From the IMG/VR virus record IMGVR_UViG_3300010403_000027, positions 1 through 48,700 of that record: 48,700 bases of DNA, one strand, 5' to 3'. The notes under the pieces were generated by a model. The model saw nothing but the letters and a program-made list of their open reading frames with translations. It was not told the DNA's origin and searched no databases. Source of the DNA: a virus. Positions 5,090 through 43,805 of this stretch are shown here, piece after piece. The position numbers and the translations under genes were made by a program. How positions within the stretch are numbered: the first letter of the stretch is position 1; every line of letters starts with the position of its first letter.

Positions 5090-5093
5090 GCGG

Positions 5094-9688: not shown

Positions 9689-9690
9689 GG

Positions 9691-10080: not shown

Positions 10081-10082
10081 GG

Positions 10083-13452: not shown

Positions 13453-13712
13453 ACGCCACACCCTTGCGTGCAGACACGCACGCGGGAAGATCGAGGGTTG
13501 TGGTTTGGGAAGGAGAGCCGGGGCCGTGCGCGCCAAACCGAGCGCCTGACCCCCGACGCATCCGCGATGTCGTGGCGATGACCCACGCGCCGTCTAAGGC
13601 GAGGACGGCGACTCGACACAGGCAGAGGCCGCGCTGCCTGACCGCGTAGAAGACTAGCTTACGGGGCGATCCGCGTCCCGTGCAACGCCACAGGTAGCGT
13701 CACGCGCGAATT
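13453..13712. other. Non-coding leader with three hairpins upstream of head genes
   Basis: No reading frame here looks coding. Three perfect short inverted repeats are visible: 13466-13483 (GCGTGC arms), 13588-13610 (CGCCGTC arms) and 13619-13640 (CAGGCAG arms). None is followed by a T-run on the minus strand, so simple terminators are unlikely. The region may hold a promoter or an mRNA-processing or stability element for the capsid genes. I see no convincing sigma-70 promoter. Confidence 0.45.
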
Positions 13713-16789: not shown

Positions 16790-17158
16790 TTAGACGACCT
16801 GGACCACTTTCCGCTTCAGCCCCTGCACGACGGTCTGCACGGCTTCGCGCACAATCGAGGAGATCTCCCGCTCCGTGTCGGCATCGAAGGCCGCGAGCAC
16901 CGTGGCGAGGCTCGCCTCGAGCGCCTGCTTCACTTTGGCTTCCGTTGTCCAGAGGCCCACGCCCTGCGCGAGCACGAGCGCGACGACCGTATCGCGGAAG
17001 CGCTGCCGCGAGAGGGCATCCCCGATCAAGGTCGCGACGCCGCGGGCCGTAATCGCTTCGGCGAAGCGCTCGACGAGCGCGACTTCGAGCGCGCCCCCCG
17101 CCGGCAGCACGACGACGACGCCGGACTCATCGACGACCTGCAGGCGGTAGCGGCTCAT
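16790..17158 (-). CDS. Hypothetical helical protein of the head-fibre region
   Basis: The 122-residue product starts MSRYRLQVVDESGVVVVLPA. After a short beta part it is helical and Ala/Val-rich (GALEVALVERFAEAITARGV, then KQALEASLATVLAAFDADTE). It has no membrane segment or enzyme motif. The start overlaps the upstream stop by four bases (ATGA). It could be a chaperone or structural partner of the fibres. I do not recognise it. Confidence 0.6.
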   Translation of the reverse strand: MSRYRLQVVDESGVVVVLPAGGALEVALVERFAEAITARGVATLIGDALSRQRFRDTVVALVLAQGVGLWTTEAKVKQALEASLATVLAAFDADTEREISSIVREAVQTVVQGLKRKVVQVV

Positions 17159-17670
17159 CGCTCGGCCTCGGGAATCTTTTCCAAGGTGTCCTGAATCTCC
17201 AGTTTCGCCAAGCTCCGCGAGAGGAAGTCCGCGCCTTCGTCCCCGCCCTCCTGTTGCGCGGCCTGCTCGACGATGGCCGTTTTGATTTGCTTCGTGCCGA
17301 AGGTCGTCTGCAGGTTGTAGGCGGTTTTGGCTTTTTGGATGTCCTGAAAGTCGTCGCGGGGCATCTTCATCAGCACTTCTTTGCCGCGCTCCCCGAGCAC
17401 GAGGCGCCCGTCACGGTTTTCGAGGCCGTAGTCGTCGATGCGGCCTTCGATGTCCGCCGGCTGCGCGAAGATCCAGCCTTTCTGCTGCGCGTACGAGATG
17501 CGGTTCGTCGCCGCGTCGGCGTTGAAGATCCGCAACTGCCAGCGGCGCGGCTCTTTCAAGGGAATCTCCATCGCGTTGCCCGCGTTGGGATTCTTCAGGC
17601 GCCGGGCGACGATTTCGGATCGCTCGCGCACGACGACGGGTTTAATGACGGGTGCTTTGTCTTTCGCCAT
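17155..17670 (-). CDS. Hypothetical head-region protein
   Basis: The 171-residue product starts MAKDKAPVIKPVVVRERSEI. A strong ribosome site (AAAGGAG) lies just before the ATG at 17670, which decides the start over the longer frame. The sequence has FNADAATNRISYAQQKGWIF and RDGRLVLGERGKEVLMKMP, giving a mixed alpha/beta fold with a helical, charged C-terminus. It lies between the scaffold gene and the fibre genes, so a head-assembly or virion role is plausible but unproven. Confidence 0.6.
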   Translation of the reverse strand: MAKDKAPVIKPVVVRERSEIVARRLKNPNAGNAMEIPLKEPRRWQLRIFNADAATNRISYAQQKGWIFAQPADIEGRIDDYGLENRDGRLVLGERGKEVLMKMPRDDFQDIQKAKTAYNLQTTFGTKQIKTAIVEQAAQQEGGDEGADFLSRSLAKLEIQDTLEKIPEAER

Positions 17671-17678
17671 AGACTCCT

Positions 17679-17930
17679 TTACCGACTGAACGCGCGAAAC
17701 GCCTGCAGATACGCGAAATACTTCCGGCCGAAATCGCCGAGCGGTTGCATGAACGACGAACAGCGCGCCCCCGAGCCGTACCACCACTTGTAGCGCAGGC
17801 GTTCCTTCAGACAGAGCAGATGGATTTTCAACGCTTCGGCGCGATAGTCCTCGGCGACGATCTGCTCGACGGCCCCCGCGAAGGGCTTGTGTCGTCGGAC
17901 CTGCTGCTGGACGATCTGAATCTCGTTCAT
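17679..17930 (-). CDS. Small basic hypothetical protein
   Basis: The 83-residue product starts MNEIQIVQQQVRRHKPFAGA and is helical, basic and aromatic (RLRYKWWYGSGARCSSFMQP). The start overlaps the scaffold stop as ATGA. No family is recognised. Its place next to the scaffold gene suggests a role in head assembly. Confidence 0.55.
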   Translation of the reverse strand: MNEIQIVQQQVRRHKPFAGAVEQIVAEDYRAEALKIHLLCLKERLRYKWWYGSGARCSSFMQPLGDFGRKYFAYLQAFRAFSR

Positions 17931-18814
17931 TCCAAGCTGTTCGGTTGACCCTTCACATACGTCTTCGCCCGCGCTTCAAAGTCCTTGTGCGACATGTTCG
18001 CCTCGTCGGCGAGTTTCCGCTCCAGGACGCTCATCGTGTACGGCGTGCTACTCCGCGCCCCGGCCGCTTCCGCGAGCACCGGCTCCCGCTCGATCGCGGG
18101 CAGGACCGGGGACCGGACTCTGTGCCCCGCCAGCGCCAATTCGCCCAGGGCCGTCTTCACGACGACATCGCCCACTTCCGGCACGGCCCGCAGATGATCA
18201 GGGAGCGCGTTCCAGGCGTCCAAGAGCGCCCCATGCGTCGCCGGATCGGCGAAGACAAACGCGCCGGTGCGATCTTTCGTCGCCGCGATCCGCATGAAGT
18301 TATCGTGCGCGGCACGCTGCTCGTCGTTCGCCTGCAAGGGCTTCAACGCTTCCTGCGCGGCTTCCCGCGACACGCGCTGCAGATCGGCGCGGGTTTCGGC
18401 GAGGATGCTCTTCGCGGTCTTGACGTCCAATTTGCTCTCGGCGTCATACAGCTGATGCCGCCGGGCGTAGGTTTCGGCGTCGCTGTCACTCACCTCGGGC
18501 GCGGGCGGCGTGACGGGCGCGGGCGGCGTCAGGCGCTGGACTTCGGCGCGCAGGGTCGCGATCTCGCTCGCCTGTTGCCGCAGCGGTTCATACTCGGCGC
18601 GGATCTTCGCTTCGGTCGCTTCGCGCACGCGCTTGCGTTCGGCGGCGAGCAAAGGGCCGACGTCGATCTTCTGCCCGGTGACTTCGACGACGCCGTTGTC
18701 CTCGGGCACCGCGCCATCGGGCACGACGAGCGGATCGGCGGGCGCGGGTTGTGGCTCCGGCGGCGTGCTCAAATCATCGAGCGACAAGCCATCGGCCATA
18801 CTGAGTTCACTCAT
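17927..18814 (-). CDS. Scaffolding protein
   Basis: The 295-residue product is acidic and Pro-rich at the N-terminus, then highly charged and helical (ERKRVREATEAKIRAEYEPL), with probable coiled coil. It ends with a helical basic tail (SHKDFEARAKTYVKGQPNSL), the usual capsid-binding end of scaffolds. It lies between portal and capsid genes in transcription order, the standard place. Scaffolds guide procapsid assembly and then leave. The call is from composition and location. Confidence 0.75.
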   Translation of the reverse strand: MSELSMADGLSLDDLSTPPEPQPAPADPLVVPDGAVPEDNGVVEVTGQKIDVGPLLAAERKRVREATEAKIRAEYEPLRQQASEIATLRAEVQRLTPPAPVTPPAPEVSDSDAETYARRHQLYDAESKLDVKTAKSILAETRADLQRVSREAAQEALKPLQANDEQRAAHDNFMRIAATKDRTGAFVFADPATHGALLDAWNALPDHLRAVPEVGDVVVKTALGELALAGHRVRSPVLPAIEREPVLAEAAGARSSTPYTMSVLERKLADEANMSHKDFEARAKTYVKGQPNSLE

Positions 18815-19152
18815 ACGGGTACCTCGTCCAAGACGGCCAAGACATCACGGGCGCGCATGATCACGTACGTCAGATTGTCGATCGTCACTTCCTGCCCGCT
18901 CTTCCAGCTGAACGTCACGCGATCGCCGATGCGGAAATCAATGGCCCCGCGTCCGCATTTCGTGCACGGCGTGTCGCTGCCGAGCGCGACAATCACGCCG
19001 GAGGTGTACGACGTCGCCACATCCTGCCCTGCGACGGCGGCGGCCAACGTCGGCGCCAGCACCAAGCCGCTTTCTGTCTCGGTCGGCGCGTGATCCTCGA
19101 CGTCGGGCTGAATCAACACGCGATCGCCGATGACGCGCAACGGCAGCCTCAT
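18811..19152 (-). CDS. Phage GroES-like co-chaperonin
   Basis: The 113-residue product has the GroES (Cpn10) pattern: an N-terminal RVIGDRVLIQPD strand, the mobile-loop segment TESGLVLAP, then SGVIVALGSD. The C-terminal part has DFRIGDRVTFSW and a closing VIMRARDVLAVLDEV. GroES caps GroEL and binds it through the mobile loop. An insert with Cys-x-x-Cys (PCTKCGRG) before the second half is unusual and could bind metal. It lies between portal and scaffold genes, so it probably adapts host GroEL to fold the capsid protein, as T4 gp31 does. Coupled by four-base overlaps on both sides. Confidence 0.8.
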   Translation of the reverse strand: MRLPLRVIGDRVLIQPDVEDHAPTETESGLVLAPTLAAAVAGQDVATSYTSGVIVALGSDTPCTKCGRGAIDFRIGDRVTFSWKSGQEVTIDNLTYVIMRARDVLAVLDEVPV

Positions 19153-19373: not shown

Positions 19374-19663
19374 AACCCGCCCCGCCGACTCATCACGGCG
19401 ACATCGGGGATCGGCTGCTGTTTCTTCAAGCGGACGACTTCTTCTCCCGGCCAGCGGAGCAAACTCGCAATCACTTTCTGCGCGCTCACAATCTGCCGCG
19501 CCTGACTCGCCGCCGCATTGTTGTCGCCCTGATCCAAGGCTTTCGTCAGTTCCTGCTGAAAGCGCACGCCAGAGACGCCCCATTCGCGCTCGACATACGC
19601 CGTAAAGAGGCGCCAGCCTTCGGAGGTCACGAGGCGATCCAGATCGTCCGCGGCTTCGCTCAT
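19370..19663 (-). CDS. Hypothetical helical protein
   Basis: The 97-residue product starts MSEAADDLDRLVTSEGWRLF. It is helical (EELTKALDQGD-type segments, then SQARQIVSAQKVIASLLRWP). This pattern is common among small phage head-region proteins. The ATG at 19663 overlaps the upstream stop as ATGA, so the longer frame is rejected. The function is unknown. Confidence 0.6.
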   Translation of the reverse strand: MSEAADDLDRLVTSEGWRLFTAYVEREWGVSGVRFQQELTKALDQGDNNAAASQARQIVSAQKVIASLLRWPGEEVVRLKKQQPIPDVAVMSRRGGL

Positions 19664-20295
19664 GCGCGCTCCGCGATGTCGAGCCGAGCTTCTTCGGCCG
19701 TCAACCACGGGTCCACATGGGCGGCGTGAGACACGACGATCCGATATGTGTGCGTTCGTTCCTCGATATCTTCGAGCGCATACCGATACGGCTGTTGCCC
19801 GAGGCCGTTGCTGTAGACATGGCCGATCCGCACCTCCACGCCCTTGCCCGCCGCGTACCCGAGCCACCATTCCACGCAGGGCCGTTCGACTAACGCCTCT
19901 CGCGCCCCCGTCAATGGGATGCCGTACAGTCCGATCATCGTCGCGCCTTCCGCGAGCGCCAGCGCGATCTGATACGCCATCGTGCAGGCGAAGTAATCAC
20001 GGCCGTGCGACAGCGCCGCGTCGAGGGGAAAGCGGATCGCGGTCGGCACCGTAGGCAGATCGAAAAACGTGTAGACGGGAATCGTCAACGCGGCCAAGCG
20101 ATCCCAATGGTCCGGTTCCCGCCGGGACCGCGTCAACGGCGTGTCGCCGTGCAATTCAAACCAGCGGGATGCTCGGGCGATCTGCTTCGGTGTCCAGAGG
20201 AGATAGCCGTCGTTGATTCCCCACACCTCAACGTCCGACGGCGTGGCGAAGGCCTCCGACCAGCCCGCCGCCATCCCCACAATCGCCACCTTCAC
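19660..20295 (-). CDS. Rossmann-like phage protein, paralogue of the 4220-5089 product
   Basis: The 211-residue product begins with a nucleotide-binding-like strand-loop (MKVAIVGMAAGWSEAF), followed by EVWGINDGYLLW and ASRWFELHGD. A later block has MIGLYGIPLTGAREALVERP and GYAAGKGVEVRIG. The same motif order is seen in the 289-residue product at 4220-5089. It sits directly after the portal gene with a four-base overlap. The fold suggests binding of a nucleotide or sugar nucleotide, but no reaction is known to me. Confidence 0.7.
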   Translation of the reverse strand: MKVAIVGMAAGWSEAFATPSDVEVWGINDGYLLWTPKQIARASRWFELHGDTPLTRSRREPDHWDRLAALTIPVYTFFDLPTVPTAIRFPLDAALSHGRDYFACTMAYQIALALAEGATMIGLYGIPLTGAREALVERPCVEWWLGYAAGKGVEVRIGHVYSNGLGQQPYRYALEDIEERTHTYRIVVSHAAHVDPWLTAEEARLDIAERA

Positions 20296-24956: not shown

Positions 24957-25907
24957 TCAGGCTTTTTCGCCCGCTGTGAACCGCAAGCCCCGCTGGGCCG
25001 TGCGCCTCGTCGCCAAATCCTGATACCGCAGATCCACGCCCACCCAACGACGGCCGAGGCGTTCCGCGACCGCGCCGACCGTGCCACTCCCAAGGAAGGG
25101 ATCGAGCACCAACCCGCCCACGGGACACCCCGCCAAAATGCACGGCTGCACCAAGGCTTCCGGCATCGTCGCGAAGTGCGCGCCCGCATAGGGCATCGTC
25201 GGGATCGTCCACACGCTTCGCTTGTTGCGCCCGCCCTGATTCCCCCAGCCCGTCTCACGCTCAAGATAGCGGCCCATGTTGTTGCCGACGCGCTTCTCAT
25301 TCGGCGTGTGGTGTCGCTCGGTGTTCAGCGGTGCCCGCATACGTTCGATGCTCTCGGCTGAATGCGGTTCGCGTATCGCGTCGGCGTTGTAGTAATACCG
25401 CTCTGACTTGGTCAGCAAGAACAGATACTCGTGACTTTTCGTCGGTCGATCCGTCACGCTTTCCGGCATGGGATTCGGCTTCGCCCAAACGATATCGGAG
25501 CGCACATACCACCCGTCGTCTTGCAGCGCAATCGCGACGCGCGCCGGAATCAACAGCAAGTCTTTCGGCTTCAAATCGTGATCGAGCAAGCCGTGACCGC
25601 GAGCGAGATCAGGCCGTGCCGCATCGTGCCGTCCGTTGCTGATGGAACTCGACGGCCCGGCGTTGCCGTTATAGGCGTTATAGGTATCGCCCAAGTTCAG
25701 CCAGAGCGTGGCAGCGTCCGTCATCACGCGCCGCACGTCGCGAAAGACGCGAACGAGCGCCTTGACGTAAGTTTGCGAGTTGCCTTCCAAGCCGATTTGC
25801 CGCACGTCGCCGTAATCCCGCAAGCCAAAGTACGGCGGGGACGTCACGACGCACTGCACGCAGCCCTCGCGCAAGGGCAGATGGCGGGCATCCCCGCGGA
25901 TCAGCAT
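24957..25907 (-). CDS. Site-specific DNA methyltransferase (TSPPY type, N4-cytosine or N6-adenine)
   Basis: The 316-residue product has the catalytic motif TSPPYFGLRDYG near residues 22-33. A variable middle, the likely target-recognition region, contains KPNPMPESVTDRPTKSHEY. The SAM-binding motif DPFLGSGTVGAVAERLG comes near the C-terminus. This order is that of beta-class methyltransferases. SPPY is commoner in N4-cytosine enzymes but also occurs in N6-adenine ones. No restriction enzyme lies beside it, so it is probably an orphan that protects phage DNA from host restriction. Confidence 0.85.
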   Translation of the reverse strand: MLIRGDARHLPLREGCVQCVVTSPPYFGLRDYGDVRQIGLEGNSQTYVKALVRVFRDVRRVMTDAATLWLNLGDTYNAYNGNAGPSSSISNGRHDAARPDLARGHGLLDHDLKPKDLLLIPARVAIALQDDGWYVRSDIVWAKPNPMPESVTDRPTKSHEYLFLLTKSERYYYNADAIREPHSAESIERMRAPLNTERHHTPNEKRVGNNMGRYLERETGWGNQGGRNKRSVWTIPTMPYAGAHFATMPEALVQPCILAGCPVGGLVLDPFLGSGTVGAVAERLGRRWVGVDLRYQDLATRRTAQRGLRFTAGEKA

Positions 25908-25913
25908 CGGCTT

Positions 25914-26132
25914 TTACGTCGGCGCGAGACATTCCCGGCTGACGGTGGTGAACCGGGCATGGCAGGTGTCACATTCCCGCCGCCGTTTCCGGCAGCCGGG
26001 GAACAAGGCACTGAGCCGCACATTCAAGATCCGGCTGTCTTCCGCCCCGCAGGAGGGACAGACCGGGATGACATGATCGGCCTCGTCCAACGCCACGTCG
26101 CCGCCGCTCGAGAGTGGACTCCAGGTACTCAT
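25914..26132 (-). CDS. NrdR-like zinc-ribbon protein
   Basis: The 72-residue product has CPSCGAEDSRILNVR followed by RRRECDTCHARFTTVSRE. This is very like the zinc ribbon of the NrdR repressor (Cys-Pro-x-Cys and RRRxCxxCxxRFTT), without NrdR's ATP-cone domain. It may bind DNA or RNA or assist neighbouring enzymes. The start overlaps the upstream stop (ATGA). Confidence 0.7.
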   Translation of the reverse strand: MSTWSPLSSGGDVALDEADHVIPVCPSCGAEDSRILNVRLSALFPGCRKRRRECDTCHARFTTVSRECLAPT

Positions 26133-27106
26133 AGCCCTCCTAACGCTTTGACGACGTCGAGATCACCGGGCCGCCCGATCCAGCACGGCGTCCCCTGCTG
26201 CACGGCGAGATATTCCGCGAGCAATTTGTGCGCGTAGCAGGTGCCCGTGAATTCCGTATAGAAGCCTAAGCTCGGCTTGCCCAAGCGGAGCGCCAGCTGC
26301 ATGGCTCCCCCGTACGTCCCCACAAAGCCCGCTGCTTGTGCCAGCACCGCACTCTGCAAGGCCAGGTGATTGCTGACGGTACAGTGCGGGGCCGTGCTCG
26401 TCACGCGATCACTCAGGGGAATCACGAAGTCCTGATGATCGTCCGCGTCCAAGCCGCTCTCGAGCAGGACCACCGGAATCTGCGCGGACAGCCGCTCGAC
26501 GAGCGTTTCGACCCAGGTGCGAATATCCTCGCGCAAGGGGAAGGTCGGGCGTCCATAGAATTTGACGGCGACAAACTTCTCGGGCAAGACGAGCGCCAGG
26601 GGCAGCACCGGCACACTGAGCGGGGGCCATGGGTGCGCGCCGGGGATGGTCAGCCGGTGGACGACATCACTCAGGGGCATGTGCCCGCTGAACCACGGGG
26701 CGAGGTCTTGGTACATCAAGCTCGGATGCAGGATCGAATAGCGCCGCAGGCCCTGCGTCGAGGCCACTAAGGCCAGTAAGCGCCGATCCTGCGCGGTGAT
26801 CGCATTCTGCTTCAACGTGCCGTCTTGCGCACTCGCGGCGTACAACCCCTGGCGGACGTGTGTCATGGACAAGTGATCGAAGAGTTCCACCGGCCGGCAG
26901 GGATGGTGCCAGACGGCCGAGCCCGCCGGCGCGACGACGGTGATCCGATCCGGGTCGACGGAGTACTTCGTGCGCCACGCCGCGAGCCAGGGCTGGAAGT
27001 ACAGCGCATGGAAGCCGACTTCCGAGCGCCACGGGCCCACCAAGATCGGGGCACGACTCGCCGCCAAGTGTCGCAGGGTGAGGGATCGGGTCCAGGCATA
27101 CGGCAT
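26129..27106 (-). CDS. Glycosyltransferase-like protein (GT-B, heptosyltransferase-like)
   Basis: The 325-residue product has features of GT-B glycosyltransferases of the GT9/heptosyltransferase sort. A mid-protein strand reads FVAVKFYGRPTFP. A later segment, VLAQAAGFVGTYGGAMQLAL followed by RLGKPSLGFY, is like the donor-binding loop. It is coupled on both sides in a block with two DNA methyltransferases and a radical SAM protein. The acceptor could be modified DNA, a protein or a host glycan. The family is likely, the substrate unknown. Confidence 0.65.
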   Translation of the reverse strand: MPYAWTRSLTLRHLAASRAPILVGPWRSEVGFHALYFQPWLAAWRTKYSVDPDRITVVAPAGSAVWHHPCRPVELFDHLSMTHVRQGLYAASAQDGTLKQNAITAQDRRLLALVASTQGLRRYSILHPSLMYQDLAPWFSGHMPLSDVVHRLTIPGAHPWPPLSVPVLPLALVLPEKFVAVKFYGRPTFPLREDIRTWVETLVERLSAQIPVVLLESGLDADDHQDFVIPLSDRVTSTAPHCTVSNHLALQSAVLAQAAGFVGTYGGAMQLALRLGKPSLGFYTEFTGTCYAHKLLAEYLAVQQGTPCWIGRPGDLDVVKALGGL

Positions 27107-27289
27107 TCAGGCTTTCGGGACGTGCGGTTTCCGGGCGGATCGGCGCCAGAGCGAGGCGGCGACGATGCGCGGGGCGAAGCCGTCCACTTTGACGGCGGCC
27201 ACTTTCTGCGCGTGCAGCCAGTTGTACAGGGTGCGGCGCGTCACCCCGGCGCGATCGGCCGCCTGTTGCAGATTCAGGAGCGTACTCAT
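27107..27289 (-). CDS. Small helix-turn-helix protein
   Basis: The 60-residue product has a MerR/AlpA-like HTH (NLQQAADRAGVTRRTLYNWL) followed by a basic tail. The ATG overlaps the radical SAM stop (ATGA). Such proteins are excisionase-like or small transcription factors. One acting within the nucleic-acid modification block could regulate it. Confidence 0.7.
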   Translation of the reverse strand: MSTLLNLQQAADRAGVTRRTLYNWLHAQKVAAVKVDGFAPRIVAASLWRRSARKPHVPKA

Positions 27290-28245
27290 TTCCCGTCCTT
27301 CGGAGGTCTGGAGATCCCGGAGAGGCTGGATACGCGCGGGGACAGACAGCCGTAAACCGACGAGACGGGATCTACCGCGTCGGCCAATCGTGGCGCTTCC
27401 CGCGATGTCGCCCGAACGCCTCCGCTGTGAATAATCGCCGGGCGCACCCAACGCCGTTGAAACGCGCGCCACTCCGGTGCCGGTTTGTGCTTTTGCGCGC
27501 TCGCGGTTTCCGGTTGCCAGAGCATCGCCATCGGCGTGAACCCGATCCGCACCATATCCCGCAGGCGCTTTTCGGCGGTCTGGAAGGTGTCATGCGGATA
27601 GCCGACGAGCACGTAACAGCGCAGGCGTCGGCCCTTCGTGGAAAACCCGGCCGCAATCAGTCGGCGTGCCGCACTCTCTAACGTCTCGAACGGATCGCCG
27701 GGGTCATACGCCCAGAACATCACCGGGCGCGGCTTCAGCGCGGTCAGTAGATCGAGATGGAAGTCTTGCAAGGCGGCGGCTTCGAGGCCGCCCGTAAACT
27801 CGATCTGCCGGTGCTGCCGCTGGAGCATGGCGAAGACGGCGCGCACATGCGCCTCGGGCGCGGCGAGCAGGTTGTCATCGAGGATGTTCCAGCCGTCTTG
27901 AATCGGCAGCACGCGCACATCAGGATCGCGCTTCCAGACCGAACAGAACCAGCAGCGACGCGGACAGCCCCGCGACGTGAAGACATAGCCCGGCTTGATG
28001 TATTTGCCGACGATGAACTCGTCGCCCCGGTCGCCGTAGGCCACGCCGCCGATTCGCGTCGGCAGCAACTTCGCCCACTGCTCGGCGAGTGACTCGGCAT
28101 ACGGCTTGTCATAGGTAAAGGTCACCGACACGTCCACGGCATCAGCCGTCTCCGGCGTGTCATACAGATCGGGCGGACCAAACCGCGCCAACGCATCATC
28201 CGGCGTCGCTTTCGTCTTCCGAGGAAACACACGAATCAATCGCAT
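27286..28245 (-). CDS. Radical SAM protein
   Basis: The 319-residue product has the iron-sulphur motif Cys-x3-Cys-x2-Cys at residues 94-101 (RGCPRRCWFC), which cleaves S-adenosylmethionine to start radical chemistry. Downstream segments fit the partial TIM barrel (QIEFTGGLEAAALQDFHLDL, RLRCYVLVGYPHDTFQTAEK). The N-terminal 80 residues and the last 40 are outside the core. Phage radical SAM proteins have been implicated in base modification. Its neighbours here include a C5-cytosine methyltransferase and a glycosyltransferase-like protein. The substrate is unknown. Confidence 0.75.
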   Translation of the reverse strand: MRLIRVFPRKTKATPDDALARFGPPDLYDTPETADAVDVSVTFTYDKPYAESLAEQWAKLLPTRIGGVAYGDRGDEFIVGKYIKPGYVFTSRGCPRRCWFCSVWKRDPDVRVLPIQDGWNILDDNLLAAPEAHVRAVFAMLQRQHRQIEFTGGLEAAALQDFHLDLLTALKPRPVMFWAYDPGDPFETLESAARRLIAAGFSTKGRRLRCYVLVGYPHDTFQTAEKRLRDMVRIGFTPMAMLWQPETASAQKHKPAPEWRAFQRRWVRPAIIHSGGVRATSREAPRLADAVDPVSSVYGCLSPRVSSLSGISRPPKDGK

Positions 28246-28485: not shown

Positions 28486-29388
28486 TCAGCCTTTCTCTTC
28501 GGTGGAGCTGCCCGCGCCACGGGCTCCCGCGGGGGGATCTGGTGGGGCTGCCGGCGTGGTTAACTCCGCGTCTTTGATGCGTTCCGCGATCCATTGCGCG
28601 ATCTGCGGGACGATGCTGTTGCCCAGGCCGCGCAGACGGTCCACCCGAGCGGGTATCCCATGAGCCACTCGACCCACGTCGGGTTCAACTGCCCATGGAT
28701 CTCTCGCCGCTGGAGCTCCTCCACCAGATTCACTCCACGCGGATTGTCCTGCCTGGCCAGAAAAGACGCGGAATCCGGCGAGTGCTGACTCCTGAAATCC
28801 CTGGCCGTGGGCGTCGGCCACATCCGCGCGAGTTCGGTCGGCCTCGGCGTTTTGCTTTGAAAACGCTTGGACCGCCCGACCGTTCCCTCGGCATCGCATT
28901 GCGTCGGCGTGCCGACCCACAATCCAGACTCGGTCGCGTCGGTGAGGGGCGCCAAAGGCACTTGCTGGTAAGCAATCCCATTCCGCGTCATACCCGCACG
29001 CGGCCAGGTCTCCGAGAAGGTCTCCAAAGAACCGTCCAGCGTCACTTGAGAGTAGCCCTGGCACGTTTTCCGCCACGACCCATCGGGGTTCAAGCGTGCG
29101 AATGAGTCGGACAAAGTGGGGCCAGAGGTCGCGCTCGTCGCCGGCGCCGGCACGTCGGCCAGCCAGCGAGTGGGGCTGACAGGGAAATCCTCCGCAGAGA
29201 ACATCGACGGCTGCGAGGTCGGGTCCGATGGTGCAGACATCGTCGTAACGCCTCACGTCCGGCCAGTGCTGCGCCAGCACGGCCCGACAAAACGGATCGA
29301 TTTCCACTTGCCACTTGATCTCAAAGCCCGCGCGTTCAAACCCCAGGTCGAACCCGCCGATCCCCGCGAATAAACTCCCAACAGTCAT
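28486..29388 (-). CDS. C5-cytosine DNA methyltransferase
   Basis: The 300-residue product has motif I FAGIGG (7-12), motif IV GGFPCQP with catalytic Cys70, motif VI ENVPGL (107-112), motif VIII RRDRVWIVG (150-158) and a final RLRGLGNSIVPQIAQ. The target-recognition region is short. The ATG at 29388 has a GGAAGGAAA ribosome site and begins directly at motif I. A GTG at 29457 overlaps the upstream stop (GTGA) and is an alternative start. It methylates cytosine at an unknown site. A second reading frame of 226 codons is open inside it. The 3' end carries the repeat shared with the neighbouring gene. Confidence 0.88.
   Translation of the reverse strand: MTVGSLFAGIGGFDLGFERAGFEIKWQVEIDPFCRAVLAQHWPDVRRYDDVCTIGPDLAAVDVLCGGFPCQPHSLAGRRAGAGDERDLWPHFVRLIRTLEPRWVVAENVPGLLSSDAGRFFGDLLGDLAACGYDAEWDCLPASAFGAPHRRDRVWIVGRHADAMRCRGNGRAVQAFSKQNAEADRTRADVADAHGQGFQESALAGFRVFSGQAGQSAWSESGGGAPAARDPWAVEPDVGRVAHGIPARVDRLRGLGNSIVPQIAQWIAERIKDAELTTPAAPPDPPAGARGAGSSTEEKG
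28500..28560. repeat. Imperfect 61-bp direct repeat, copy B
   Basis: This is the partner of 28269-28330, covering the last codons of the C5-methyltransferase gene. The two copies are about 230 bases apart, so a duplication or copying event between the ends of adjacent genes is likely. Confidence 0.8.
28560..29240 (-). CDS. Nested alternative-frame ORF inside the C5-methyltransferase gene
   Basis: A 226-residue frame on the same strand as the methyltransferase, but in another frame, begins MSAPSDPTSQPSMFSAEDFP. It contains FSETWPRAGMTRNGIAYQ, LAPLTDATESGLW, MWPTPTARDF and LNPTWVEWLMGYPLGWT. I know these motifs from many phage proteins annotated near or as cytosine methyltransferases. Here each lies opposite a conserved methyltransferase motif: LAPLTDATESGLW is the shifted reading of FGAPHRRDRVWIV. 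The ATG at 29240 has a weak GAGG upstream. It is either a real overlapping gene or a by-product of codon constraint. Confidence 0.35.
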   Translation of the reverse strand: MSAPSDPTSQPSMFSAEDFPVSPTRWLADVPAPATSATSGPTLSDSFARLNPDGSWRKTCQGYSQVTLDGSLETFSETWPRAGMTRNGIAYQQVPLAPLTDATESGLWVGTPTQCDAEGTVGRSKRFQSKTPRPTELARMWPTPTARDFRSQHSPDSASFLARQDNPRGVNLVEELQRREIHGQLNPTWVEWLMGYPLGWTVCAAWATASSRRSRNGSRNASKTRS

Positions 29389-29453
29389 TTTCCTTCCGGC
29401 GCCCTCGCCCTGCGCCTCTCGATCCTCCGATGCGGGAGATCGTGTCGTCCTGA

Positions 29454-29930
29454 TCACGTCAGGGTTCCTCCGCGCGATAAATCTTTTGTCTCTGCTTTTT
29501 CAGGCTCACGGGACGCCGCGGGTGATCCCTGACGGATCGCGGTGATGGCGTCTAATACATCAGCCCGACAGACCATCGGCCCATCGGGGTCGGCCATCCA
29601 GCCCGACACATTCAGCGACGTATAACGCGGCAACTGCTCGATCAGCGTCTCGCAGAGGCGGGCGTCTCGCTCGCGCTGATCGGCTTTCGCGGATTCAATC
29701 GCCAGCGCCGTCATGCCCGCTGCCGCCGTGGCTTCTTCTTCCAGCATCTTGGCGTCTTCTCCATGCACACCTTGAAACGTCGCAATTTGGATCGAGGGGG
29801 TGACGGATCCCACGCCGAGATCGTAGGCGGCTTGTAATTCCGCTTCGATGGAGTCCACCGACAGCACGCGATTCATAATCACAAAGGCCCGCGATCGTAA
29901 GTGGAGGCGGGGATCTACGTCTCGGATCAT
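29454..29930 (-). CDS. Hypothetical early protein
   Basis: The 158-residue product starts MIRDVDPRLHLRSRAFVIMN, with a helical, acidic middle (HGEDAKMLEEEATAAAGMTA) and QLPRYTSLNVSGWMADPDGP near the end. The ATG at 29930 overlaps the upstream stop (ATGA). No family is recognised. Confidence 0.6.
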   Translation of the reverse strand: MIRDVDPRLHLRSRAFVIMNRVLSVDSIEAELQAAYDLGVGSVTPSIQIATFQGVHGEDAKMLEEEATAAAGMTALAIESAKADQRERDARLCETLIEQLPRYTSLNVSGWMADPDGPMVCRADVLDAITAIRQGSPAASREPEKAETKDLSRGGTLT

Positions 29931-37966: not shown

Positions 37967-38165
37967 AGACCTTGCCCCGTCGTATGCGCGGGGGGACGTT
38001 CCGGCCCGTGTGCCCTCCCAACTCGTCCTCAACCTGCACCAGTCGGTGCTCGACATGCACCGCTTGACGATGGCCCGCGCGGTCCTCGTCGCCGATCTGA
38101 CCGAGGTCGCGACGCAACAGCAGATCAACGTGCACGATCGCCGCCTCCGTGCAGGTCACGCATGA
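37896..38165 (+). CDS. Small helical protein between repressor and integrase
   Basis: The product, about 89 residues from ATG 37896, starts MRRVEQQRPVVARLLVRGLV and contains LVLNLHQSVLDMHRLTMARA. It is helical. Its stop overlaps the integrase start (ATGA), which supports expression. It begins inside the last 71 bases of the repressor gene. An in-frame TTG at 37863 or ATG at 37776 would lengthen it, but that part looks out of frame. The function is unknown. Confidence 0.5.
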   Translation: MRRVEQQRPVVARLLVRGLVRQLEDLAPSYARGDVPARVPSQLVLNLHQSVLDMHRLTMARAVLVADLTEVATQQQINVHDRRLRAGHA

Positions 38166-39301
38166 CCCGCCGCAAACTCACCGGCCTGCAACGACGCGGC
38201 AGCAAATGGCGCATGGTCGTCCGCGTCAACGGCGTGCTCCATGTATCGCCGTGGGGACAGGAACCCTTCACCGATCTGACTGACTGGCGCGATGCGCAGA
38301 TCGAGAAGTACGCCGCGACGGCAGACGCCGCCGGCGGCCTGGGCGAGAAGGTGCAGGCCTATCTCCAGCGCGTGGCGGCGCTCCCCACCATCAAGCAACG
38401 CACGGCGCATCTCGCGCTGTGGGTGCATGAGCTGGGCGCGGATCGCCCGCCGCTCTCGGTGACGACAAGCGAGATCGACATCATTCTTCAAGGCTGGCTC
38501 GAAACCCTTGCGCCGGGAACGATCCGTAAGCGCCGCACGGCGCTGCGCTCGTTCTATGCGAAGCTGTATCCGAAGCACGTCAGCCCGGTGAAGGGCTCCG
38601 CGAATCCCAAAGAGCCGAAGCTCGAGCATCGCGATCTCGGGTATCCCGCGCTCGAGCGCGCGCTCGCCGCGATGCCGACGCAGCGCGATACGAAGAAAGG
38701 CTTACCGCCGCGCCTCAGCCTGTCCGCCATTCGCGCCCGCGTGATTGCCTATGTCGGCATTCCCCCTGGCCTGTTGCAGAAAGTGCAGCCGCATGATGTC
38801 GTGCTGACCGGGCAGGGCAGCGTGCGCGTCCACACGCGCACGAAAGGCGGGGGCGTGGAGGCGCGGACCCTCTCGCTGACCGCAGACGGCCTCGCGGCCT
38901 TCAAGGCCTTCCACGCGGCTTATGCCTACGGACGGTTTGCGCCGGAGGCGCTGAACAAATCCTTCAAGCGTGCCTGCGCCCGCGCCGGCCTCGATCCGAA
39001 GAGCGTCCACATGTACGACGCGCGGCATACCTTCCTGTCCCAGGTGTACCGCGTGACGCGGGATCTCGCCACGGTGGGACGGCTCGGGTTGCACGCGAAA
39101 GGCTCGACGGTGACCGCGCGCTATGCGTTGGCCGCGAATCAGGAAGTGGATGCCGCGGCGGTGGAGGCGTTCAACGCCGCGTTGACGGCCCAACGACAAG
39201 CCGCGCTGAAGGTCGCCCCGAAGGTCGCCGCATCGTTACCGAAAAAAGTTACCACGGCCCGTAAGTCCCGTCGACGCCGCAGATTGCGTGCCGTATCGTA
39301 G
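38162..39301 (+). CDS. int: Tyrosine-type integrase
   Basis: The 379-residue product has an N-terminal arm-binding and core-binding part (to about residue 150) and a C-terminal catalytic domain. Lys228 sits in a beta-hairpin (RVHTRTKGGG), YDARHTF supplies Arg288 and His289, and His311 and the nucleophile Tyr321 follow (TVTARYALA). The first catalytic Arg (usually Thr-Gly-x-Arg) is not seen; residues 199-205 read GIPPGLL. The gene ends inside the tRNA-like attachment site, a common layout. It integrates and, with an excisionase, excises the phage. Confidence 0.88.
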   Translation: MTRRKLTGLQRRGSKWRMVVRVNGVLHVSPWGQEPFTDLTDWRDAQIEKYAATADAAGGLGEKVQAYLQRVAALPTIKQRTAHLALWVHELGADRPPLSVTTSEIDIILQGWLETLAPGTIRKRRTALRSFYAKLYPKHVSPVKGSANPKEPKLEHRDLGYPALERALAAMPTQRDTKKGLPPRLSLSAIRARVIAYVGIPPGLLQKVQPHDVVLTGQGSVRVHTRTKGGGVEARTLSLTADGLAAFKAFHAAYAYGRFAPEALNKSFKRACARAGLDPKSVHMYDARHTFLSQVYRVTRDLATVGRLGLHAKGSTVTARYALAANQEVDAAAVEAFNAALTAQRQAALKVAPKVAASLPKKVTTARKSRRRRRLRAVS

Positions 39302-39344
39302 CCCTTTCAAGGCCAAAACACGGGTTCGAATCCCGTTGGGGACG
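39301..39344 (+). other. attP: attP core: 3' half of a tRNA-Glu gene
   Basis: These 44 bases read as the 3' half of a tRNA-Glu(UUC). A GCC/GGC stem remnant encloses the anticodon loop with TTC at 39306-39308. A T-arm follows with ACGGG, loop TTCGAAT and CCCGT, then acceptor strand TGGGGAC and discriminator G. No 5' half is present, so it is not a functional tRNA gene. Phages that integrate at tRNA genes carry such a fragment to restore the host gene. It starts at the last base of the integrase stop codon. Confidence 0.85.
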
Positions 39345-39596
39345 CTCCCTCAAATTCTCGAAAAGATTGAGCAAATTGCTCGAAAATCACGCGTTTCTGG
39401 CGTCTGCCCCGCGCCCGCGCTGACTGCGGAAAAGTGCGGAAAAGTGCGCATAGACGGCCCGAAAGTTACCACCGGAGTTACCACGGACCACATTTGTAAG
39501 CCGATTCTTCTCGCTATTCCCGCGCGATGCGCCCACACTCCGAAGCCTTCCTCGGTCACCGGTTTTTATTTCTCGGCACAGTTTCAGGAGTCCGTC
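39345..39596. other. Non-coding attP flank with repeats
   Basis: No coding frame is convincing here. The region holds a 13-base near-palindrome at 39369-39381 (GAGCAA and TTGCTC around one base). A 10-base repeat, TGCGGAAAAG, occurs in tandem at 39425-39444 followed by a partial copy. Two of the AGTTACCAC sites are also here. These suit integrase, excisionase or host-factor binding. A promoter for the next gene should be here but none is clear. Confidence 0.5.
39425..39450. repeat. Short tandem repeat near attP
   Basis: TGCGGAAAAG is repeated twice in tandem, followed by TGCGCA. It lies 80 bases right of the attP core and may be a protein-binding site. Confidence 0.6.
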
Positions 39597-39941
39597 ATGC
39601 GGTCTGTCCTCCTCGGCCTCGTCGTCGTCGTGTCGCTGCTCGTCCTTCCGTCGTCGGTGTCGGCGCAATCGCACGGCCTCGTCGTCAGCGGCGCGCTCCT
39701 CTCGGTCGGCGGGACGGTCCTCTCGTTCGTCGGCGGCTATGGGATGCGGAAGACGACCTGTGAGACGACGCCCGTCGCGGGCAGCCGCGAGCAAGTCATC
39801 ACCTGCCTGAACCGCCCCAACCACCCCGTCATGTTCACCGGGATCGCGCTGGCGAGTGCCGGCGGCGTGCTCGTCGCCGTGGGCAACCATAAGAGCATCG
39901 CCCTCGGCCCGCGCTCGGCGACGTTTCGCTGGCGCTGGTAG
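39597..39941 (+). CDS. Small secreted or envelope protein (lysogenic conversion candidate)
   Basis: The 114-residue product starts with a signal peptide or membrane segment (MRSVLLGLVVVVSLLVLPSS, probable cleavage after VSA before Gln). The mature part has two hydrophobic Gly-rich stretches (LVVSGALLSVGGTVLSFVGG, FTGIALASAGGVLVAVG) and two cysteines between them. The ATG at 39597 has an AGGAG site six bases before it. It is the first gene after attP, so at one prophage end. A superinfection-exclusion or envelope-altering role is plausible. No family is recognised. Confidence 0.7.
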   Translation: MRSVLLGLVVVVSLLVLPSSVSAQSHGLVVSGALLSVGGTVLSFVGGYGMRKTTCETTPVAGSREQVITCLNRPNHPVMFTGIALASAGGVLVAVGNHKSIALGPRSATFRWRW

Positions 39942-39995
39942 CCTGATACCACCGGCAACCTTCCCCCGTGCCGCGCCGGCTGTCACACTGGCGCG

Positions 39996-41024
39996 GTGCG
40001 GTTGTCCTTCGCTGATCTTCCAAGGTACGCCGGCCTCGTCAGCATGGCCGACGGGAGCTTTGATCCGCTCCATGCCGGGCACTTGCGCTACCTGCATCAA
40101 GCGCGCGCCCTCGGCGCCCCGCTGCTCGTCAATCTGTGCCCTGACAGCTACACGATCACCAAGCATCCGATCCTGCTGCCCATAGAAGACCGCGCGCAGA
40201 TCCTCGACGCCCTGGCCATTGTCGACTACGTGCATGTCGCGGCCGTGTCCACCGCGGACGTGCTGCGGCGTCTGCAGCCCCGCAGTTACGTCAAAGGGCG
40301 GGAATGGATGGGCTGCCTGCCCCAGCCGGTGATCGACGCCTGCGGGGGCTGTGACATCGTGTACACGGACACACCGACACAGTCCTCGACGGCGCTCCTG
40401 CGCCAGCTGCAGCCGGATGTGGACAGATTTGAAGCACTGGTACAGAGCCAGCAGCCGGCCGCGACGCCATGGACGCCGACGGCCGCCGTGCCGTATGACT
40501 TCCAGAGCCGCAAGATTGCCGAGGGCGAGCACCCACAGCGAATTGTCGACACGTTCGGCGAAGCGGCGGAGGATTTCGTGGACGTGGGCGCGGGGCCGGG
40601 GCATCTCGTCAAGTTACTGCACGATCTCGGCATGCACGGGGCCGGGCTCGATGTGGCGTATCAGGTCAACGCGCACGTCTTCGGCGCGGATGTGACCGAC
40701 CCTGACGGGATACAGTGGCCGCCGCGGCGTCTCGTCATCTGCCGCGAAGTCTTGGAGCACCTGACGGTGCGGCAAATACGGCAGGCTGTCACGAACCTCT
40801 GCGCCCTCAGCGCGCAATTCGTCTACCTCACGACGCGCTTTTCTCAGGCGCGGCACTTCCTCGACTTCGCGACGTCGGACGATCTCGATCCGACACACAT
40901 CTCGATTCTGCCGATGCCGTGGCTGCGGCATCTCTTCGTGCTCGAAGGCTTCAAGAGACGCGCCGATCTCGAGCAGCGGATGGACTGGCAGAAGAAAGGC
41001 CGTGTCTTGGTGTACGAACGATGA
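39996..41024 (+). CDS. Sugar nucleotidyltransferase - methyltransferase fusion
   Basis: The 342-residue product has two domains. Residues 1-140 resemble RfaE/HldE C-terminal or TagD-type nucleotidyltransferases: GSFDPLHAGHLRYL with the His-x-Gly-His motif at 26-29, IEDRAQILDAL, SYVKGREW and a final SSTALL. Residues 165-342 form a class I SAM methyltransferase with DVGAGPGH at 196-203 and CREVLEHL at 249-256. Start is GTG 39996; a later ATG at 40044 would cut the first strand. It overlaps the next gene by four bases. It probably makes and methylates an activated sugar or polyol; the substrate is unknown. Confidence 0.75.
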   Translation: MRLSFADLPRYAGLVSMADGSFDPLHAGHLRYLHQARALGAPLLVNLCPDSYTITKHPILLPIEDRAQILDALAIVDYVHVAAVSTADVLRRLQPRSYVKGREWMGCLPQPVIDACGGCDIVYTDTPTQSSTALLRQLQPDVDRFEALVQSQQPAATPWTPTAAVPYDFQSRKIAEGEHPQRIVDTFGEAAEDFVDVGAGPGHLVKLLHDLGMHGAGLDVAYQVNAHVFGADVTDPDGIQWPPRRLVICREVLEHLTVRQIRQAVTNLCALSAQFVYLTTRFSQARHFLDFATSDDLDPTHISILPMPWLRHLFVLEGFKRRADLEQRMDWQKKGRVLVYER

Positions 41025-41791
41025 TCGATGCCGTGCTCTCGCACCACATGAACCCGCTCACCTGCGGCGTGGCGAAGTGGAATCACGCGCTTGCCGCCCA
41101 CCTCGGCGTGCCGTGCTTCTCGATCAGCGCCGGCGCCCGGCTCGCGCGGCATCCGCTCGTCTCCATCAAACCGAGTGAACTATTCGGCTGGGTCGGCGTG
41201 TCGACGCCCTACGATCTCTTTCTGCACGGCTACACGGGCGGGCCGCTCGTCACGCAGGCCACGCGCGTCTATGTCGGCAACCGCGAGCTGGCCGCGCAGC
41301 TGCGCCCGATCCGGCCGGATGTGATCGAGGCTTTCTGTCCGGCGACGGTCAGCGGCGATCCGACGCGCGGGGCGTACCGCGTGCTCGTCTTCGGCATGGC
41401 GCACAAGCTCGCGCTGCCGCACTTTGTCCAGCTCAAGGCCCAGCTCGACGCCCACCATCACGACTACACGATCGAATTATCCACCGCCGTCCATGAAGGC
41501 TCGCCGTGGGAGACGGCGCTCGAAGAGGCCGTCGACGCGATGCGCGCGATCTTCGGGGACAAGCTCCGCGTGCTGGGCTTCTTGGGCGATGATGCGCTCG
41601 CGAAAGAACTGCAGGACTGTGACGCTGTCGCCGCCTACTTCACGCCCGCCCTGCGCGCGAATAACACGAGCGCCTGGGCCGCGCTCGCCGCCGGCAAAAC
41701 GCTCTACACGAATACCGATGCCGACTCCCCCGCGCTCGACGTGTCGGCCTATTCGTGGCCGAAGCTGCTGGATCTCATCCGTGGCGCGTAG
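41021..41791 (+). CDS. Glycosyltransferase-like protein
   Basis: The 256-residue product starts MIDAVLSHHMNPLTCGVAKW, like the N-terminal nucleotide-sugar glycosyltransferase loop with a Gly-Val-Ala. Later segments fit a GT-B fold (YRVLVFGMAHKLALPHFVQL, KLRVLGFLGDDALAKELQDC, TSAWAALAAGKTLYTN). It is shorter than usual for a complete two-domain GT-B enzyme. The start is ATG 41021, overlapping the previous stop (ATGA). It may attach the sugar made by this operon. The donor and acceptor are unknown. Confidence 0.65.
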   Translation: MIDAVLSHHMNPLTCGVAKWNHALAAHLGVPCFSISAGARLARHPLVSIKPSELFGWVGVSTPYDLFLHGYTGGPLVTQATRVYVGNRELAAQLRPIRPDVIEAFCPATVSGDPTRGAYRVLVFGMAHKLALPHFVQLKAQLDAHHHDYTIELSTAVHEGSPWETALEEAVDAMRAIFGDKLRVLGFLGDDALAKELQDCDAVAAYFTPALRANNTSAWAALAAGKTLYTNTDADSPALDVSAYSWPKLLDLIRGA

Positions 41792-42713
41792 CTTCACCCT
41801 CGCGGGCCGCCCGATCACCGACGACTCGCCGTGTTTTGTCATCGCGGAGATCGGCAACAATCATCAAGGCGACCCCGCGCTCGCGCAATCCATGGTACGC
41901 ATCGCGGCCGACTGCGGGGCGGATGCGGTGAAGTTCCAATGTCGCGACAACGACACGCTCTACAGCCAGGCCTTGCTCGACAAGCCCTACGAGAGCGAGC
42001 ACAGCTTTGGCGCGACGTATGGCGCGCACCGGCGGGCGCTGGAACTGTCGCCCGACGATCTGCGGCGGTGCCTCATCGAAGCCGAGGCGCGGCACGTCAT
42101 CGGCTTCGCGACGGCCTTCGATGAAGCGAGCGCGGATGTGCTGATGGCGCTGCAGGTGCCCGCAATCAAACTCGCGTCGGGCGCGTTGACGGATACGGCG
42201 CTGCAGGAGTACGTGGCCTCGTGTGATGTGCCGCTGCTGCTCTCGACGGGCGGCGGCGATGAGTGGGACATCGATCGGGCCGTCGAGACGATCAGCGCGC
42301 ACCACACCAACTTCGCGCTGCTGCATTGCGTCGCCGCGTATCCGCAACTCCCGAAAGACGCCAACCTGCGCTGCATTCCGGTGCTGCGGGCGCGCTATCC
42401 CGAGACGATCATCGGGTTCAGTTCGCATCTGCCGGGCATTGCGTTCTCGCTCGTCGCGTATGCGTTCGGGGCGCAGATCGTGGAACATCACTTCACCCTC
42501 GACCGGAGCCTGAAAGGCGGGGATCATGCGTTCTCGCTCGAACCCAAAGGACTGGCGACCTTGGTCGATGATCTCCGCAAGCTCCACGGCGGCCTTGGCG
42601 ACGGTGTGAAGCGGTTCTTGGAATGCGAACGCGGTCCGATCAGCAAAATGCGCCGACGCCAGACCGCCGACGGTCTACAAATCACCGGAGCCCTCGATGC
42701 CCCCACCGATTGA
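41781..42713 (+). CDS. NeuB-type nonulosonic acid synthase
   Basis: The 310-residue product starts with a GTG at 41781 inside the previous gene. It has the NeuB/SpsE pattern: FVIAEIGNNHQGDPALAQSM, ADAVKFQCRDNDTLY, AIKLASGALTD, IIGFSSHLPGIAFSLVAYAF and IVEHHFTLDRSLKGGDHAFS. These enzymes condense phosphoenolpyruvate with an N-acetylhexosamine to form sialic, legionaminic or pseudaminic acid. The C-terminal antifreeze-like (SAF) domain of full-length NeuB is absent. It is followed by a cupin and a CMP-sugar synthetase in one operon. Confidence 0.85.
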   Translation: MARSFTLAGRPITDDSPCFVIAEIGNNHQGDPALAQSMVRIAADCGADAVKFQCRDNDTLYSQALLDKPYESEHSFGATYGAHRRALELSPDDLRRCLIEAEARHVIGFATAFDEASADVLMALQVPAIKLASGALTDTALQEYVASCDVPLLLSTGGGDEWDIDRAVETISAHHTNFALLHCVAAYPQLPKDANLRCIPVLRARYPETIIGFSSHLPGIAFSLVAYAFGAQIVEHHFTLDRSLKGGDHAFSLEPKGLATLVDDLRKLHGGLGDGVKRFLECERGPISKMRRRQTADGLQITGALDAPTD

Positions 42714-43092
42714 AGCCTTCCCGATCCACGATGTCGGCCCGCGCACCTGGGGCCGCGAAGTGCTCATCGCGCAGACGCCGCACTATCTTGGCAAATTGCT
42801 CTACATGAACGCGGGGACCGCGGGCGGGCTGCAGGTGCATCGGGAGAAAGACGAGACGTTCTTCTTGTTCTCCGGCGAGGCCTTCGTCGACACCGATCCG
42901 GGGACGGGGACGTTGCAGCGGTTACGCATGATGCCCGGCGAGAGCTACCACATTCCCCCGGGCGCGGTGCATCGTGTGGAAGCGATCACGGACTGTATTT
43001 TTTTTGAGGTGAGTACGCCGCACTTCAATGATCGCGTGCGCATGGAAACCCGCTATGGCCTGCCGGAGATCGGCGGGTTGCCGACGACATGA
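42697..43092 (+). CDS. Cupin-domain protein of the sugar cassette
   Basis: The 131-residue product has the cupin motifs GGLQVHREKDETFFLFSGEA and SYHIPPGAVHRVEA, with His and Glu metal ligands. Similar cupins accompany nonulosonic-acid gene clusters and are often labelled mannose-6-phosphate isomerase-like. Its start overlaps the NeuB-type gene by 17 bases and its end overlaps the NeuA-type gene. The reaction is unknown; sugar isomerisation or modification is likely. Confidence 0.75.
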   Translation: MPPPIEAFPIHDVGPRTWGREVLIAQTPHYLGKLLYMNAGTAGGLQVHREKDETFFLFSGEAFVDTDPGTGTLQRLRMMPGESYHIPPGAVHRVEAITDCIFFEVSTPHFNDRVRMETRYGLPEIGGLPTT

Positions 43093-43805
43093 CATCGCCC
43101 TCGATTCTCGCGCTGATTCCCGCGCGCGGCGGCAGCGTACGCATTCCCGGCAAGAATCTCAAGCCGCTGCACGGGCATCCGTTGCTCGCGTATACGATTG
43201 CCGCCGCGAAAGCGAGCGGCATCTTCGCGCGGATCTTCGTGTCGTCGGAGTCGCCGCAGGTGCTGGACGTCGCCAGTGCGTACGGCGCGATCGCGTGGAC
43301 ACGGCCGGCCGCGTATGCGACGGCCGAGTCACCTGACATCGAATGGGTCCACGATCTGCTGACGCACACGGCCGAGGGCGACTGCTTCGCGATCCTGCGG
43401 CCGACGTCGCCCTTTCGATCCGCCGCGACGATCCAGCGCGCGTGGGAACAGTTCCAGCGCAGCCCGTGCGACTGTTTGCGGGCGGTCGAAGCGGTCAGCG
43501 TGAATCCGTACAAATGCTGGGTGCTTTCCGACTGTGAACTGACGCCGCTCCTGCCGGTGCACGATGTCCCGCCGTGGCATTCGCGGCCCTCGCAGACGTT
43601 GCCGCGTGTGTATCAGCAGAATGCGAGTCTGGAGATCGCCAAGTGCAGTCTCGTGCGGGATCGACTGTATCCGTCCATCTGTAGCGGCAGAGTCTGGGGC
43701 TTCGTGAATCCCAGGCCGGAGGGCTTCGACATCAACGATGCCGACGACTGGGCGTTCGCGGAAATGCAGATCGCCAGCGGCGCGTGGACACTGCCGACGA
43801 TCTGA
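43089..43805 (+). CDS. NeuA-type CMP-nonulosonic acid synthetase
   Basis: The 238-residue product has the signature ALIPARGGSVRIPGKNLKPL, where Arg and Lys bind CTP. HPLLAYTIAAA, RIFVSSESPQVLDVA and ILRPTSPFRSAATI follow, as in acylneuraminate cytidylyltransferases. It activates a nonulosonic acid with CTP. It follows the cupin gene with a four-base overlap (ATGA). It is the last plus-strand gene and meets the leftward genes six bases later without a visible terminator. Confidence 0.88.
   Translation: MTSPSILALIPARGGSVRIPGKNLKPLHGHPLLAYTIAAAKASGIFARIFVSSESPQVLDVASAYGAIAWTRPAAYATAESPDIEWVHDLLTHTAEGDCFAILRPTSPFRSAATIQRAWEQFQRSPCDCLRAVEAVSVNPYKCWVLSDCELTPLLPVHDVPPWHSRPSQTLPRVYQQNASLEIAKCSLVRDRLYPSICSGRVWGFVNPRPEGFDINDADDWAFAEMQIASGAWTLPTI

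Follow-up and report, generated by a model that had tools for sequence, protein, structure and literature searches.

A nonulosonic-acid gene cassette carried among head genes in uncultured phages may serve glycosylation of the phage particle

To our knowledge, glycosylation of the phage particle has been demonstrated in only a few phages. In mycobacteriophages, glycans on capsid and tail-tube subunits are attributed to phage-encoded glycosyltransferases (Freeman et al. 2023, as described in PMC12619734). Acinetobacter prophage genes epaA-epaB act on a nonulosonic acid, epimerising the host-made pseudaminic acid of the capsule (PMC12053666); pelagimyophages carry rfaE-type and glycosyltransferase genes in a host recognition cluster within the structural region, interpreted as serving O-chain modification (PMC7029224); and in Caulobacter, where flagellin is glycosylated with pseudaminic acid, NeuB and a CMP-sugar synthetase supply the cytoplasmic protein glycosyltransferase FlmG (PMC7591256). 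Here we analyse a five-gene cassette for a nonulosonic (sialic-like) acid in IMG/VR record IMGVR_UViG_3300010403_000027, a linear 48.7 kb virus contig without host sequence (the window, positions 1–48,700). We propose, giving the idea about an even chance of being right, that the cassette is a phage-encoded cytoplasmic nonulosonic-acid glycosylation pathway acting on the phage's own particle. We found no report in the literature of synthesis and activation of a sialic-like sugar by a phage whose genes for these steps are kept beside its capsid genes.

Each of these systems resembles the locus in part. The mycobacteriophages likewise use phage glycosyltransferases, whereas for the present phage glycosylation is a proposal, and we found no nonulosonic acid synthase, CMP-sugar synthetase or sugar-supply cassette described for them. 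The epaA-epaB system consists of two genes, without synthase, CMP activation or transferases, and the pelagimyophage cluster is a large, hypervariable, non-syntenic island for which sialic or neuraminic genes are unmentioned. Caulobacter differs in that its NeuB has the antifreeze/SAF domain, the full precursor pathway is encoded and the acceptor is flagellin. A Deltaproteobacteria metagenome-assembled genome (MAG; JACRCN010000026, locus L011) holds together homologues of the nucleotidyltransferase–methyltransferase fusion (NTase–MTase) and of the two glycosyltransferases described below (GT1 and GT2), but these adjoin an ABC-type polysaccharide exporter, with no NeuB or NeuA in the stretch examined.

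The five plus-strand open reading frames (ORFs) of the cassette occupy positions 39996–43805 and overlap successively by 4, 11, 17 and 4 nucleotides (nt), taking NeuB from the GTG at 41781 (Table 1). The initial annotation had read them as a nucleotidyltransferase–methyltransferase fusion, a glycosyltransferase-like protein, a NeuB-type synthase without the SAF domain, a cupin and a NeuA-type synthetase, and each assignment was borne out, the glycosyltransferase by a GT-B structural model and the others by Pfam matches. Gene 1 matches CTP_transf_like (2e-11), Methyltransf_23 (3e-6) and PDB 5x9q (6e-9), and scores 63.6 bits against TIGR02199, under its cut-off of 181.5. The cytidylyltransferase encoded by gene 5 has its best matches in the CMP-nonulosonate synthetase group (NeuA/PseF/LegF). 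Membership in the 3-deoxy-D-manno-octulosonate (KDO) pathway, as KDO-8-phosphate synthase and KdsB, found no support: gene 3 matches NeuB only, and gene 5 scores 112.8 bits against the PseF model TIGR03584 versus at most 39.5 bits against KdsB models. Because 112.8 bits lies under the PseF equivalog cut-off of 205.7, the match does not fix the sugar. No precursor-sugar genes were found with the cassette in the window, in line with the earlier expectation that the hexosamine precursor comes from the host. None of the cassette proteins has a strongly hydrophobic segment and no flippase or exporter was seen in the cassette, which fits cytoplasmic protein glycosylation. GC content and third-position GC (GC3) resemble those of other phage genes checked, and the cassette proteins gave no defence-family match in PADLOC. 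The count of five genes proved incomplete, as GT2 and two genes of the g4220 family, which lie elsewhere in the window, had been overlooked as partners.

Many uncultured phages of 42–49 kb, which form a large family, carry this cassette in the same gene order. We collected relatives from IMG/VR viral contigs by profile searches with gene 2, NeuB and GT2 and by a capsid-protein search; at least 21 distinct NeuB sequences occur in other phages with the ordered set, so the cassette is not a chance arrangement. In the commonest order, head genes (portal, GroES, g17927 and g17155) are followed by NTase, MTase, GT1, NeuB, cupin, NeuA, GT2, g12811 and the major capsid protein (MCP). Thirteen distinct cassettes begin right at g17155, most of them overlapping it, although longest-ORF starts exaggerate some of these overlaps. 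GT2 lies directly 3′ of NeuA in most relatives, and NeuA–GT2–g12811 precede 19 distinct capsid sequences. Some phages with a head-operon cassette have an integrase about 20 kb from it. A smaller group, which includes the window, has the five genes elsewhere, often adjoining the integrase or where the late genes end, and there GT2 mostly remains by the terminase. As GT2 goes with the cassette in the gene order of relatives, we regard window GT2 as the missing sixth member. Because the genes sit among head genes in most relatives, the sugar probably coats the particle rather than the host. Two phages with another capsid type carry a reduced set between terminase and capsid gene (L004, 2483–4294; L005, 2178–3905), with MTase and GT1 on the plus strand, NTase on the minus strand and no NeuB or NeuA within the stretch examined. 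Further sugar genes occur in two cassettes, a DegT/RfbH-like aminotransferase in one (L046, 7892–9073) and a short-chain dehydrogenase/reductase (SDR) with a transketolase-like protein (N and pyrimidine domains, 444 amino acids (aa)) in the other (L055, 7499–8203 and 9359–10693), suggesting that the sugar varies between phages.

Presence of the cassette and divergence of its genes both follow the head genes. We counted genes in 32 contigs that carry this capsid and measure 34 kb or more: NeuB is found in 17 and GT2 in 19, GT2 being present in all 17 NeuB carriers versus 2 of the 15 others. A separate gene-family count of 32 contigs, which includes the window and leaves out one negative contig (18 with the cassette, 14 without), places GT2 in 18/18 NeuB-carrying contigs and g4220 in 17/18 cassette-positive versus 2/14 cassette-negative contigs, the latter two being those that retain GT2; because the counted contigs are related, the Fisher p-values for these associations overstate independence. 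Across the whole set, MCP distances correlate with those of GT2 (r = 0.87) and portal (0.86). Within the head-operon clade, correlations with MCP are 0.73 for GT1, 0.63 for GT2, 0.59 for NeuB and 0.57 for NTase–MTase, and 0.71 and 0.54 for the head genes portal and g17155. As these values resemble those of other head genes, sugar genes and head genes have for the most part been inherited together. The idea that GT2 alone tracks the capsid was dropped, since in the head-operon clade every sugar gene but the cupin does so. A GroES-like co-chaperonin gene of the head operon (18811–19152, minus strand; PHROG 3188, 3e-13) is present in 18/18 cassette-positive and 6/14 cassette-negative contigs.

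The cassette synthase is a NeuB-family protein reduced to its barrel. Its TIM-barrel domain scores 219 bits against PF03102 (cut-off 22.1), and the protein stops after the barrel (about 310 aa), lacking the C-terminal SAF (antifreeze) domain with Arg314, a residue that helps to position the N-acetyl group of N-acetylmannosamine (ManNAc). Aligned with Neisseria meningitidis NeuB, it keeps E25, K53, Q55, T110, F112, K129, Y186, S213, H215, E234, H236 and D247, of which we take K53, H236 and D247 to be active-site residues, and differs in having E at N74 and A at N184. Most of the phosphoenolpyruvate (PEP)- and metal-site residues used for this comparison come from PMC6795526. The barrel thus shows no loss of catalytic residues, and NeuB catalysis is plausible as a prediction. 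Because N74 and N184 are changed and SAF with Arg314 is missing, the substrate should not by default be taken as simply ManNAc. Scores of 213 and 177 bits fall under the NeuB/PseI equivalog cut-offs of TIGR03569 (399.65) and TIGR03586 (340.25), as do those of SAF-bearing NeuBs from phage relatives. In a midpoint-rooted tree of 33 sequences with a small reference set, 18/18 SAF-less cassette NeuBs form one group (support 100/99), and the phage NeuBs separate from the PseI and NeuB references (100/99), placing the SAF-less proteins in a phage clade apart from the bacterial references. Sister to the SAF-less group (94/85) is the L008 NeuB, which occupies the same cassette position and retains SAF. 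Loss of the domain thus probably took place within phages. The closest non-phage NeuB found (45%) is an unannotated gene on a Streptomyces megaplasmid (L258, 3501–4382) that groups with the phage NeuBs. In Azospirillum thermophilum, a bacterial SAF-less relative adjoins LegB, LegC and NeuC genes, and a 59 kb phage contig (L056) has two NeuB genes (9066–10100 and 17643–18716) and one NeuA gene.

Both glycosyltransferases were recognised mainly by fold. GT1 gave no family match in sequence searches; its AlphaFold model (mean predicted local distance difference test (pLDDT) 91.9) adopts a GT-B fold whose donor domain is closest, among many GT-B enzymes, to HMW1C/NGT (Z 11.3, 3.3 Å over 135 aa), and conservation is seen across 23 sequences. 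The GT2 AlphaFold2 (AF2) model (pLDDT 92.0) matches the GT9-fold structures 3tov (Z 14.9, 4.1 Å over 261 aa) and WaaF 1psw (Z 14.7, 3.7 Å over 247 aa). Window GT2 has no match to Pfam PF01075, to which 5 of 28 homologues match, short of the cut-off (best E 0.0026). In cultured-phage records GT1 and GT2 had no match, NeuB reached 25–30% in three records and the capsid protein 26–34%. A genome scan with GT1 returned a single bacterial locus, L011.

A third putative transferase, g4220, is an orphan protein with no match in Pfam or PHROGs that we regard as a candidate nonulosonate transferase. Its profile, searched against the PDB up to E 10, matched only seven chains of the GT42 sialyltransferase CstII, the best at E 0.072, which is non-significant alone. 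PF06002 (CST-I) gave no match to the family at E 1 in 20 phages, and control genomes were silent too. Homologues lie near NeuB/NeuA in phages L057, L058, L059 and L062, and in L020 a homologue shares a 4-nt overlap with NeuB; as these loci were found via NeuB or GT2, this proximity is not independent evidence. A scan started from g4220 returned mostly the same phages and fragments, and the extra contigs, scanned for NeuB and GT2, were little informative, most being fragments.

From these families and folds we infer substrates, an order of steps, an acceptor and a benefit. A hexosamine-type sugar from the host would be condensed with PEP by NeuB, and NeuA would turn the product into a CMP-sugar; epimerisation or isomerisation of an intermediate may fall to the cupin. 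A second sugar, heptose-like, is probably activated to an ADP-sugar by the HldE-like nucleotidyltransferase, a donor suggested by this enzyme together with the GT9-fold GT2, and capping of the glycan is probably the role of the fused methyltransferase. Transfer of the sugars onto head and/or tail proteins during virion assembly would be the task of GT1 and GT2, and possibly also of the g4220 family, with particle shielding, or receptor or matrix binding, as a possible benefit. A more ambitious version, which we offer tentatively and think rather unlikely to hold in full, is that a widespread group of uncultured phages carries a near-complete virion nonulosonate machine with a phage-specific SAF-less NeuB clade and two unrecognised transferase families, GT1 and g4220, where g4220 would be a new type of CMP-nonulosonate transferase with both head and tail proteins as acceptors. 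If particle glycosylation is true, acidic glycans of bacterial type can coat virions, with effects on adsorption, aggregation and persistence. Phage sugar genes, moreover, should not be taken by default as host-altering.

Several observations weigh against glycosylation of the particle. No acceptor was identified, and in the window and relative G033 the five genes oppose the late genes, which keeps them off the late transcript. For the cupin, distances are uncorrelated with those of the capsid over the full set (r = 0.05) and weakly correlated within the head-operon clade (0.24). The bacterial locus L011, where NTase–MTase, GT1 and GT2 homologues stand together beside a polysaccharide exporter, makes a surface polysaccharide an equally possible target. 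Assembly as such does not need the cassette, since some phages with this capsid lack it.

Lysogenic conversion, the explanation favoured by the initial annotation, holds that a prophage expresses the five genes and places a nonulosonic acid on host surface glycan, changing phage receptors. The predicted position beyond attP is confirmed, since the cassette adjoins the integrase and a tRNA-Glu-like sequence that forms a plausible attP; in G016 and G018, too, an integrase neighbours the cassette. Since the five genes of the window and of G033 are oriented against the late genes, they may be expressed in the lysogen. Precedent comes from the Acinetobacter prophage genes epaA-epaB, which change the pseudaminic acid of the capsule (PMC12053666), and bacterial homologues sit in the polysaccharide export locus described above. 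As a general explanation, lysogenic conversion finds no support: most relatives' cassettes are inside the head operon and overlap a head gene, where repression in a lysogen is expected; two associated transferase-like window genes, GT2 and g4220, lie in late-gene regions away from attP; and long co-inheritance with the capsid is unlike an exchangeable conversion module. On balance we consider lysogenic conversion unlikely. Local signals at the attP side are slight. A promoter scan found 1 site versus 0.7 expected, and a G+C-rich hairpin of 14 pairs (39966–40001) spans the GTG start of the cassette, upstream of the alternative ATG; it could be the terminator of the small upstream gene, and RNA folding of the region is unexceptional (z −1.3). 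That small gene (39597–39941, plus strand), between attP and the cassette, encodes a signal-peptide-like start, MRSVLLGLVVVVSLLVLPSSVSAQ, and no family was found for it.

Quite unlikely, in our estimate, is a change of the host envelope late in infection, in which expression accompanies that of the head genes and the sugar is placed on the host surface, so that superinfection is blocked or progeny do not re-adsorb to debris. Lipopolysaccharide (LPS)-type and glycosyltransferase genes in the pelagimyophage structural region have been interpreted in this way (PMC7029224), GT2 has the LPS heptosyltransferase fold, gene 1 resembles HldE, and the exporter-linked homologues of the Deltaproteobacteria MAG point the same way. 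No lipid-linked step, exporter or flippase is seen in the cassette, however, and capsid-linked inheritance together with capsid-adjacent placement in two capsid types better fits an acceptor on the particle. Capsid-linked location and inheritance are explained less simply by lysogenic conversion or envelope change than by particle glycosylation. A very improbable target for the sugar, in place of protein or surface glycan, is phage DNA or a small molecule. Phage glycosyltransferases often act on DNA (PMC7029224) and the window has two DNA methylases, yet near the cassette we recognised no genes for hydroxymethyl-pyrimidines or other base modifications, and DNA methylase families do not follow it among the mapped phages.

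Table 1 Features of the window discussed in the text
Feature	Position	Strand	Evidence or remark
g4220, orphan protein, candidate nonulosonate transferase	4220-5158	-	co-occurrence; weak GT42-like signal
Major head protein (MCP)	11874-12797	-	PHROG 371 4e-10; PHROG 133 2e-12
g12811, head gene, decoration-like by position; homologue 3′ of GT2 in relatives	12811-13536	-	synteny
g17155, head-operon gene; homologue directly 5′ of cassette in relatives	17155-17787	-	synteny
Second g4220-family gene, head region	19660-20295	-	200 bits to family profile
GT2, GT9 (ADP-heptosyltransferase)-fold glycosyltransferase	26129-27106	-	AF2 model; synteny
Tyrosine integrase (int)	38162-39301	+	PF00589 7e-6, just under cut-off; PHROG 1 6.5e-16
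tRNA-Glu-like sequence overlapping int 3′ end, likely attP core	39273-39345	+	ARAGORN
Gene 1, nucleotidyltransferase (HldE C-domain/HldC-like) fused to S-adenosylmethionine (SAM) methyltransferase (NTase–MTase)	39996-41024	+	alternative ATG 40044
Gene 2 (GT1), short GT-B glycosyltransferase, new sequence family	41021-41791	+	AlphaFold model
Gene 3, NeuB-family synthase, TIM barrel only, without SAF domain	41781-42713	+	Pfam NeuB 7e-65
Gene 4, cupin-fold protein	42697-43092	+	Cupin_2 1e-7; PHROG 7851 5e-18
Gene 5, NeuA/PseF-type CMP-nonulosonate synthetase	43089-43805	+	CTP_transf_3 2.6e-17; CMP-Neu5Ac synthetase 6ifd 4e-21

Other features of the window were recorded alongside. The two DNA methylases are on the minus strand at 24957–25907 and 28486–29457 (N6/N4-type and C5-cytosine type). 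A radical SAM protein (27286–28245, minus strand; PHROG 9298, 1e-16) adjoins a helix-turn-helix (HTH) gene and GT2; no homologue was found among the relatives collected first. The late genes, on the minus strand, exit at position 1 and enter at 48700, as if the genome were circularly permuted.

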